The translations under genes were made by a program, and so were the position numbers. From the NCBI RefSeq assembly GCF_009933175.1, contig NZ_MAEJ01000010.1:1-64000 (forward strand): DNA of 64,000 nucleotides, given 5' to 3'. Positions within the stretch are counted from its first letter, which is position 1, and every line of letters begins with the position of its first letter. Below, piece after piece: positions 61,198 through 63,671 of the stretch. This DNA is from Candidatus Enterococcus huntleyi. Lineage in GTDB: Bacteria; Bacillota; Bacilli; Lactobacillales; Enterococcaceae. The notes under the pieces were generated by a model. The model searched no databases. It was not told where the DNA came from and saw only the letters and a program-made list of their open reading frames with translations.

Positions 61198-61536
61198 TTG
61201 ACTATCATCACAGACTACATCAAATCAGCGCCTGCTGAACAACAAGAATATCTAGAAATTATCTATCAAATCGCCAAAGAGACGTTACCTGACGCAACAG
61301 AAAAAATGAGCTACGGGATGCCCACCTTTCATCAAGGAGAAAATATCGTGCATTTTGCTGGCATGAAAAAACATCTCGGCTTTTACCCTACTCCGTCTGC
61401 CATCTCAGCTTTTTCAGAGGCCCTTTCGCCTTATAAGACGAGTAAAGGCGCGGTACAGTTTCCTTACACAAAACCATTGCCTCGCACCTTAATCCAAGAA
61501 ATGATTGCCTTCAGAAAAAATGAGTTACACTTATAA
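61198..61536 (+). CDS. DUF1801 (YdhG-like) protein
   Basis: A 112-residue soluble protein of the DUF1801/YdhG family, which adopts a small alpha/beta fold and has no established function. Typical is the KMSYGMPTFHQGENIVHFAGMKKHLGFYPTPSAI stretch (near 37-70), followed by KGAVQFPYTKPLP (near 83-95). The start is TTG with AGGAGGG 7 bases before it. Single gene, terminated at 61579-61622. Confidence 0.85.
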   Translation: MTIITDYIKSAPAEQQEYLEIIYQIAKETLPDATEKMSYGMPTFHQGENIVHFAGMKKHLGFYPTPSAISAFSEALSPYKTSKGAVQFPYTKPLPRTLIQEMIAFRKNELHL

Positions 61537-61622: not shown

Positions 61623-61873
61623 CTCTCTTTCCTCATCGCCTTTTTCTCTGTTCATTTTACATGACTTTTCTGCAATTTCTTCTTATTTACTTCACACACT
61701 CTTAGGATTTTCTTTAGCCTTTTTTACAGTTGATTTAAGTTTCATCCGTTAAGCTATACCTACATTAGATAAGAAATTATTCACTCTGATAAATCGGTAT
61801 TCGATTATTATCGGAAGAGTAATTATCTAACGTATTTAGGTGGGAGTGGCTCATTCGCTGTCTCTCACTCTTT

Positions 61874-61967
61874 CGTGAATGAACGTGGTGTTATCACTCT
61901 TTATTGAGAACTAACGACGGTTTATTCTCAGCTGTTTGAGGTGTAGGTTCGAATCCTACCATTCACG
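61874..61967 (+). other. tRNA-like element without anticodon arm
   Basis: Acceptor strands CGTGAATG (61874-61881) and CATTCACG (61960-61967) pair over 8 bp. Directly inside the 3' strand is a canonical T-arm: GTAGG, loop TTCGAAT, CCTAC (61943-61959), keeping all invariant bases. The 61 bases between contain only GTG/CAC and GAGAA / TTCTC pairings with a 14-base apex and no 5+7+5 anticodon arm, no canonical D-loop GG, and no CCA. It is not a working tRNA as far as I can see; it could be a tRNA relic or a tRNA-mimicking RNA domain. Confidence 0.6.
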
Positions 61968-61988
61968 TTGTGGCTCATCAATACCTCT

Positions 61989-62054
61989 ACTTTATGACTA
62001 AGATTTTTGTGACCGTTAATCTATCACTATTACTTTATGACTAAGAATTTGTGA
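61989..62054. repeat. Direct repeats within the structured-RNA candidate
   Basis: ACTTTATGACTAAGATTTTTGTGAC and ACTTTATGACTAAGAATTTGTGAC, 42 bases apart (one indel and one change), followed by a third partial copy (AACTAAGAATCC at 62065). Confidence 0.8.
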
Positions 62055-62071
62055 CTGCGGATCTAACTAAG

Positions 62072-62130
62072 AATCCTCGTAAGAAATACTTCTCGCAACT
62101 GGTGAGTGGTCTTTCTTACGAGGATTTTTA
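62072..62130 (+). terminator. Strong terminator ending the structured-RNA candidate
   Basis: Perfect 15-bp arms AATCCTCGTAAGAAA (62072-62086) and TTTCTTACGAGGATT (62112-62126), then TTTA. No gene lies immediately upstream, which is why a noncoding transcript is proposed. Confidence 0.9.
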
Positions 62131-62237
62131 TCTGTTGATACTCCTGTCTATGCCTATCTGCCTCGTTTATTCAGCGATAAGTTCACGACTCCGTTTCTGC
62201 TTGCTTTAAAAAAATAAAATTTTTAGGGTTTGTTCGC

Positions 62238-62266
62238 TTTACAAATCGAACAAACGTTCGTATAAT
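62238..62266 (+). promoter_or_regulatory. SOS promoter with LexA box
   Basis: -35 TTTACA (62238-62243), 17-base spacer, perfect -10 TATAAT (62261-62266). The spacer contains CGAACAAACGTTCG (62247-62260), a textbook Gram-positive LexA/DinR box (CGAAC-N4-GTTCG). LexA binding there would block RNA polymerase, so the downstream genes should be DNA-damage inducible. Confidence 0.92.
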
Positions 62267-62285: not shown

Positions 62286-63671
62286 ATGTATAACACAGAT
62301 CTGCTTTTCGATTATTCAAAAGAACCGAGCAGAGATATTCTGTGCATTGATTGTAGAAGTTTCTATGCCTCTGTGGAGTGTGCTGCACGTAATTTAGATC
62401 CACTAACTGCCAAACTCGTCGTGATGTCTTATCCCAGTGACAGTCCAACTGAACGCGGAAGTGGTTTAATTTTAGCTTCTTCCCCTATGGCAAAAAAAGC
62501 CTATAATATCACGAATGTCAGTCGTGCTCGTGATCTCCCTTATCCTTATCCTAGTGACTTAGTGATTGCTGCCCCTCGTATGAAGCTCTACATGCAAAAG
62601 AATCGAGACATCAACAATATTTACAAAAGCTATACCGATGAAGAAAATCATCATGTCTACTCAGTTGACGAATCTTTTCTAGACATTACGAACTCACTTC
62701 AACTTTTTGGCTGTCAGACGGCTTATGAGTTAGCTAAAAAAATCCAAATTGATGTGTATAAAAAAACTGGAATTTACACATCCATTGGAATTGGCGACAA
62801 TCCTTTACTAGCAAAGTTAGCCTTAGATAATGAAGCCAAGCATACAAAAAGAATGAAGGCTGAATGGCGCTACGAAGATGTGCCGAAAAAACTTTGGAAA
62901 ATCCAAAAATTGACTGATTTTTGGGGAATTGGTCACCGTACAGCCAAGTCACTCAATCGTATGGGGATACGCACGATTGATGAGTTAGCTCATACAAACT
63001 ATTACGATTTAAAAGAAAAATTTGGCGTGCTAGGCGCTCAACTCTATGCCCATGCTTGGGGGATTGACCGCAGCTTTTTAGGCAAGAAAATCAAGTCCAA
63101 AGAACAATCAATTGGTAACTCTCAGGTCTTACACAAAGACTATACAAGAAAAAATGAAATTGAATTGGTTATTAAAGAAATGGCGGATCAAGTGGCGACA
63201 CGGTTACGCCGCATTCATGCGCAAACACAAGCTATTTCCCTCTGGATAGGCTTTTCTTTAGGCTATGTTGATGCCTCCGGCAAGAGCGGTTTTCATCATC
63301 AAATGAAAATTCCGCCCACTGCGAGTAGTAAACAATTAGCCGATAACCTACTACTTATTTTTCGACGCTATTATAAAAATCAAGATGTCCGAAACATTTC
63401 TGTCGGTTGTTCGAAGCTCATTTTTACAGATAGCATTCAACTCGATTTATTTTCTGAACCTGAAGAACAAGTCAAACAGATTACAACAGATCGAGCGGTA
63501 GATACTATTCGACGTCGTTACGGTTTTAAAAGTTTAATTCATGCCAATAGTTTGCTGGACGGTGGGCGAGCAATTGCTAGAAGTAGTTTGGTCGGTGGAC
63601 ATGCGGGCGGAATGGCTGGAATAGAAGGTGAAGACAGTGACAAGAAATCGAACGAAAAAAGAATTTTCTGA
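62286..63671 (+). CDS. Y-family DNA polymerase (UmuC/UvrX type)
   Basis: A 461-residue error-prone translesion polymerase. Palm motifs: IDCRSFYASVE with metal-binding Asp22 (residues 21-31) and YSVDESFLD with Asp128-Glu129; fingers SSPMAKKAYNI, then the helix-hairpin-helix LTDFWGIGHRTAKSLNRMGIRTIDELA near 213-239, and a little-finger domain to about 400. It is of the ImpB/UvrX type common on Firmicute plasmids, prophages and chromosomes. GAGGTG lies 9 bases before the ATG. SOS control is explicit (LexA box). It overlaps the next gene by 35 bases, as in typical uvrX-yolD pairs. Confidence 0.93.
   Translation: MYNTDLLFDYSKEPSRDILCIDCRSFYASVECAARNLDPLTAKLVVMSYPSDSPTERGSGLILASSPMAKKAYNITNVSRARDLPYPYPSDLVIAAPRMKLYMQKNRDINNIYKSYTDEENHHVYSVDESFLDITNSLQLFGCQTAYELAKKIQIDVYKKTGIYTSIGIGDNPLLAKLALDNEAKHTKRMKAEWRYEDVPKKLWKIQKLTDFWGIGHRTAKSLNRMGIRTIDELAHTNYYDLKEKFGVLGAQLYAHAWGIDRSFLGKKIKSKEQSIGNSQVLHKDYTRKNEIELVIKEMADQVATRLRRIHAQTQAISLWIGFSLGYVDASGKSGFHHQMKIPPTASSKQLADNLLLIFRRYYKNQDVRNISVGCSKLIFTDSIQLDLFSEPEEQVKQITTDRAVDTIRRRYGFKSLIHANSLLDGGRAIARSSLVGGHAGGMAGIEGEDSDKKSNEKRIF

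Follow-up and report, generated by a model that had tools for sequence, protein, structure and literature searches.

A conserved tRNA-like RNA element of Enterococcaceae with no anticodon and a likely RNase Z-type 3' end

Introduction

YrlA and Y RNAs are noncoding tRNA mimics. In the 'tRNA punctuation' of mitochondria, genuine tRNAs are located 5' of mRNAs. Dicistronic tRNA-mRNA transcripts are found in plants (PMC8166872). In the case of B. cereus, the pseudo-tRNA tRNAOther acts outside translation and is linked to cell-wall genes (PMC3399842).

The window analysed here is a stretch of 64,000 nucleotides from Candidatus Enterococcus huntleyi (the source genome), and it contains a tRNA-like element that belongs to a conserved family. 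The family resembles tRNA (RF00005) and the CCA-less tRNA genes of the source genome in the 7-bp acceptor, the UUCGANU T-loop, the GG of the D-loop, the AGGU-like stretch before the T-arm and the D73-Y74-H75 pattern. It differs from tRNA in the 3-bp D-arm, the variable arm of 20-90 nt in place of the anticodon arm, and the nearly invariant acceptor end. As in tmRNA (RF00023), a tRNA-like domain has a long stem instead of an anticodon arm and the body is non-decoding, whereas the family has no mRNA-like tag part and is far shorter, and the genome has its own tmRNA. The family shares with YrlA and Y RNAs the character of a noncoding tRNA mimic, but the gene of their partner Ro60 is absent from these genomes. 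As in the dicistronic and mitochondrial systems, a tRNA-like unit is located 5' of an mRNA and would be separable by tRNA 3' processing; those systems use genuine tRNAs, whereas the enterococcal family is a dedicated non-decoding element. Like tRNAOther, the family is read as acting outside translation. However, tRNAOther retains a Trp anticodon and is charged poorly (PMC3399842), and the enterococcal family is anticodon-less, widespread and found at multiple loci.

Most Enterococcaceae species sampled, E. faecalis included, carry the family. With it, one can ask in a natural system to what extent a tRNA body works outside translation, which features RNase Z and other tRNA enzymes recognise in vivo, and whether small membrane proteins are linked to tRNA processing.

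Location and surrounding features

The element is located in a gene-free stretch between a DUF1801-like ORF (61198-61536) and a Y-family polymerase ORF (62286-63671), both named from their translations. The whole gene-free stretch folds better than shuffles (z -5.0). According to ARAGORN and Rfam searches, a tmRNA (RF00023, 60291-60657; 60291-60654 by ARAGORN) is the sole match in the window, and the element is unmatched. The tmRNA gene is located 1.2 kb upstream of the element.

The features of the locus are listed in Table 1. The first-pass annotation had described an extended 5' hairpin, a terminator, long and short direct repeats, and an 8-bp acceptor with a T-arm, and all of them are present. 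The hairpins and the terminator fold far better than shuffles. The short 9-nt repeat GTGGCTCAT is found at 61846 and 61970, flanking the tRNA-like core. The acceptor GUGAAUG/CAUUCAC has 7 bp, and 8 bp only if C61874-G61967 is counted. No conservation of the flanking hairpins, repeats and terminator was found in relatives, the 9-nt repeats are not kept in other family copies, and the 335 bases 5' of the element gave no match in the only other genome of the genus. The terminator would close a transcript of about 365 nt (about 61766 to 62132) with no substantial gene inside.

The two 20-nt repeats may be what remains of the start of a short ORF (MTKIFVTVNLSLLLYD) with no ribosome-binding site. 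They resemble a duplicated short-ORF start (MTKIFVTVNLS...), akin to the MKKIFVTGATLSA-type peptide located 3' of the element in other Enterococcus.

Table 1. Features in and around the tRNA-like element of the window
Feature	Position	Strand	Evidence and remarks
T-rich hexamers TTCACA, TTAGGA, TTTAGC, TTACAG, TTTAAG, ~11-bp spacing	61691-61739	+	sequence
-10-like TATACC	61755-61760	+	sequence; predicted transcription start near 61766-61768
5' extended hairpin	about 61765-61830	+	MFE -18.8, z -3.75; specific to source genome among those searched
Second 5' hairpin	61839-61869	+	MFE -14.6, z -3.8; specific to source genome among those searched
tRNA-like element, conserved family member	61875-61966	+	covariance models 91-92 bits, E about 1e-19 in its genome (covariance-model E-values are rough); discriminator-like base 61967
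Acceptor 5' strand GUGAAUG, pairs with 61960-61966	61875-61881	+	95.1% of cells paired, 73 copies
D-arm-like hairpin AAC-GUGGU-GUU, invariant GG	61882-61892	+	97.2% of cells paired; double changes in 2/3 pairs
Long arm, anticodon position	61897-61940	+	closing CUC 61897-61899 with GAG 61938-61940; independent single-sequence folds
Long arm inner stems	61906-61929	+	GAGAA side 61906-61910 with UUCUC side 61925-61929; AAC 61913-61915 with GUU 61920-61922
T-arm GUAGG-UUCGAAU-CCUAC	61943-61959	+	99.5% of cells paired; double changes in 3/5 pairs
Acceptor 3' strand CAUUCAC, then G73 U74 U75	61960-61969	+	predicted RNase Z cut after 61967 (N73-N75 rule)
Two 20-nt direct repeats TACTTTATGACTAAGAWTTT, 95% identical	61988-62050 (starts 61988, 62031)	+	sequence
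Intrinsic terminator	62068-62130	+	MFE -35.3, z -9.5; detected as terminator

Fold and covariation

The fold of the family (73 distinct copies) is a tRNA cloverleaf composed of a 7-bp acceptor, a 3-bp D-like arm, a long arm and a T-arm. The acceptor end is near-invariant (GUGG/CCAC), the D-like arm is AAC-NNGGU-GUU with an invariant GG, and the T-arm loop is UUCGANU. The arm at the anticodon position is long and variable, and is closed by CUC/GAG. Acceptor pairs 5 and 6 are non-standard in 5 and 19 of the 73 copies, respectively. The window copy shows its own compensatory change in the acceptor, from G4-C69 to A-U.

Two alignments were used. Alignment A2 was made with MAFFT from 23 copies and was not fitted to the structure, and alignment A4 consists of 74 model-aligned copies (73 distinct). 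In A4, 94.9% of the cells are paired and double changes are observed in 19 of the 26 pairs. The number of double-change cells is 153, against 32.0 +/- 4.7 for shuffled alignments and at most 35 for slid structures; the fitting of A4 to the model favours this structure. The unfitted A2 agrees, with nine pairs showing double changes against 1.8. A lack of compensatory base changes in the stems of homologues had been set beforehand as a refuting outcome; such changes are present, and they favour the structure.

The initial models R1 and R2, in which the small hairpins are separate, were replaced by the nested cloverleaf (model R3), because R3 gave the higher score for 15 of the 18 held-out copies and the closing stem of the long arm is 100% paired in A2. 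The same stem is 95.3% paired in A4, where all three pairs covary. Some dacA-linked copies and a few others show a slightly better score with R1 than with R3.

When the middle arm is folded by itself from single sequences, most copies form one long hairpin arm, and the z values of the middle arm in long-armed copies are -4.3 (L113), -5.8 (L149) and -4.8 (L151). The middle region is 20-90 nt in length, and because it keeps no loop sequence and no conserved triplet, the family has no anticodon. An anticodon arm with a 7-nt loop and a conserved triplet is absent across the family copies. The first-pass annotation regarded an anticodon arm as impossible. This is right for the standard arm of 5 bp and 7 nt, but an arm does form at this position, by pairing of 61897-61899 with 61938-61940 and an inner hairpin. 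In the 62-nt copy L150, the middle arm is shrunk to a 4-bp stem and a 7-nt loop, which is nearly an anticodon arm.

Range of the family

All family counts treat related sequences as separate and, because the sequences are related, overstate independence. By blastn against 99 related genomes, almost only 61871-61972 was matched, in 20 of the genomes with 73-94% identity and at up to four places within one genome. A pattern scan of named genomes gave 29 loci in Enterococcus, Vagococcus and one Lactobacillales bin. The covariance model matched 68 of 106 Enterococcaceae genomes, or about 62 after removal of six genomes of one genus with 34-36-bit matches, which were left uncounted because the one match inspected (L116) is a true tRNA-Leu. 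Among 398 genomes of the order Lactobacillales, the family is found in three families only, and the carriers are Enterococcaceae, Vagococcus-type genomes and one further genus. No occurrence elsewhere, and none outside Lactobacillales, was found in a class-wide sample of 301 genomes. Two patterns gave no match in viral contigs. Phage records gave two matches to the element, one of which is an unverified assembly contig.

The source genome has a second, divergent copy (L030) located 5' of a short membrane ORF. The E. faecalis copy (L032) is located 97 nt 5' of a lipoprotein-like gene adjoining nhaC and is unannotated in the record examined; the locus is situated between EF0636 and EF0637 (naming according to PMC6856193).

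ARAGORN detected no tRNA at the window element or among the other copies tested. Using the Rfam tRNA model RF00005 at loose thresholds, 61875-61967 scores 26.8 bits, below the 29-bit cut-off, and no family of Rfam 15 matches the element at gathering score. The family escapes standard annotation, being absent from Rfam and not scorable as a tRNA. The E. faecalis sRNA and structured-RNA literature does not mention the family in the main texts covered. The element appears to be an undescribed RNA family, in the sense that it is absent from Rfam 15 and from the part of the literature searched.

Promoter and downstream genes

A -10 box is located 5-8 nt upstream of base 1 of the element at 23 loci (about a third; 3.9 expected), and base 1 itself is therefore probably the transcription start there. 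The leader is about 10-35 nt at other loci and about 110 nt in the window. With leader lengths spanning 0 to about 110 nt overall, no common 5'-processing step is evident. No promoter at the window element passes a strict sigma-70 scan. The T-rich hexamers of the window are possibly a putative site for an OmpR/PhoB-type regulator, which is proposed because 11-bp repeats are expected for such regulators; when the upstream regions of the family members are taken together, a period of 11 bp scores best. Comparison with pstS for Pho boxes is suggestive only, and the promoter motif is a candidate.

An RBS-preceded ORF of up to 100 aa with a membrane segment follows 28 of 75 copies, against 17 of 336 control points. 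At 35 of 77 loci, including the window, a terminator occurs before any RBS-preceded ORF (stand-alone form). The downstream short membrane proteins differ in sequence between loci, and nine representatives gave no Pfam or NCBIfam family above cut-off. Since the neighbours change, it is the RNA that is conserved as a unit.

Just 3' of the element, proteins of 27-54 aa with a single membrane segment are encoded (L002, L016, L025, L051, L105, L107 and others); they belong to several unrelated families and have no Pfam or NCBIfam match above cut-off. The arrangement of the element, a short membrane protein and a dacA-like carboxypeptidase gene is observed in several enterococcal genera (L016, L017, L019, L102, L112, L015). 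In L102 and L112, the element begins 7-10 nt past the upstream stop codon.

3' end of the element

RNase Z cuts after the discriminator and contacts the acceptor and the T-arm, and its activity is suppressed by CC after the discriminator (PMC7479834). In the B. subtilis RNase Z co-structure, the D-arm and the anticodon loop are dispensable (PMC7479834). Streptococcal tRNAs, all of which are CCA-less, need RNase Z (PMC8549757).

In 75 distinct copies, N73 (the discriminator) is G, U or A and never C, N74 is a pyrimidine in every copy (64 U and 11 C), and N75 is never G. The positions after N75 look free. The 29 distinct tRNA genes of the source genome show the same limits at N73 and N75, and their N74 is U in 26 and C in 3. 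An encoded CCA is absent from 26 of the 29. The family copies have the acceptor and the T-arm, no CC after the discriminator and a 3' flank of the CCA-less type, all of which are traits of RNase Z substrates. Judged from these sequences, the family RNAs are likely substrates of RNase Z, because their 3' flank follows the rule of the CCA-less tRNA genes of the genome.

Proposed function and alternatives

We propose with moderate confidence that 61875-61967 encodes a non-decoding RNA of about 93 nt with the shape of a tRNA, which uses the tRNA 3'-end pathway and acts as a small RNA and/or a processed leader. The predicted primary transcript runs from about 61766 to 62132. RNase Z would cut it after 61967, the 3' end could receive CCA, and the tRNA-like body would be set free as a stable small RNA. 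At other loci, where an mRNA for a short membrane protein follows, this cleavage would detach the tRNA-like leader from that mRNA. The RNA is probably a tRNA mimic that binds one common protein partner, as suggested by the near-invariant acceptor end (GUGG/CCAC) and the conserved elbow. A tRNA mimic was among the earlier suggestions, and it is supported by the conservation and covariation of the family and by its tRNA-type elbow, acceptor and 3' flank. The weakest step is that the RNA would do so within a regulatory circuit connected with the cell envelope. A more specific scheme, which we find doubtful, is that the element serves bacteria as a dedicated punctuation mark and regulator: RNase Z cleavage would couple release of the tRNA mimic to expression of the unrelated short membrane proteins, and tRNA-processing capacity would in this way control an envelope response.

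The element may instead be a cis-acting leader only, whose fold caps and stabilises the downstream short-membrane-protein mRNA, or gates its translation, the released RNA being functionless. We give this a limited but real chance. The short membrane-protein ORFs that follow 28 of the 75 copies, the prediction of base 1 as the first transcribed base at many loci, and the dacA locus, which keeps the element, the small membrane ORF and dacA in several genera, are consistent with a leader. However, the stand-alone form, to which the window belongs, and the conservation of the RNA but not of the downstream proteins argue against it. It is quite unlikely that the element is a decoy or sink, itself unprocessed, which tunes tRNA metabolism through a tRNA-binding protein (a tRNA-modifying enzyme, RNase Z or P, or a synthetase). 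A conserved elbow, a near-invariant acceptor end and a middle arm free to vary would suit such a role, and a decoy for tRNA-processing enzymes, as the first-pass annotation had it, is close to the preferred reading. A pure decoy, however, would not need the rule at positions 73-75, which matches that of processed tRNA genes.

The cloverleaf topology, together with the short arm and 7-nt loop of L150, would agree with an unusual tRNA that still decodes in spite of an aberrant anticodon arm. This is very improbable in view of the middle arm of 20-90 nt with a varying loop sequence and no conserved triplet, the rejection of the tested copies by ARAGORN, and the variable discriminator. Decay of a tRNA, or an attachment-site relic of an integrated element, would accord with the nearby tmRNA gene, the tRNA-like 3' half and the 9-nt flanking repeats. 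Both ideas had been raised for this locus, and their likelihood is now extremely small: the strong covariation already contradicts them, as compensatory changes preserve the stems of copies from many genera, no integrase context was seen, the viral contigs searched lack the family, the 9-nt repeats are unconserved, and the dacA-linked locus is common to several genera. We attach equally little probability to a conserved leader peptide (ATG AAC GTG GTG ...) in place of an RNA. NTG is often present at acceptor positions 5-7 and opens short frames of the MNVVL type; however, there is no ribosome-binding site, the start codon is lost (GCG/ACG) in several copies, and base pairs are kept whereas length and frame are not. 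The least probable of all is the earlier proposal of a Y RNA-like (YrlA) partner of the Ro60 protein. YrlA RNAs likewise mimic tRNA, but the proposal is already contradicted by the TROVE/Ro60 domain count of 0 in 106 Enterococcaceae genomes; moreover, RtcB is absent from the source genome and no Rfam Y-RNA matched at E<=10.

Additional observations

At 62246-62266 of the window, a LexA/DinR-type SOS box CGAACAAACGTTCG and a -10 TATAAT are located directly 5' of the UvrX-like Y-family polymerase and another ORF. Plasmids of E. faecalis and a phage carry a stretch similar to this region. A Vagococcus teuberi plasmid carries a copy of the type that adjoins an sbcD-like gene on Vagococcus chromosomes (L031, L010, L011, L008). 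In Vagococcus acidifermentans (L013), CRISPR-array-like repeats are located about 300-800 bases 3' of the element.
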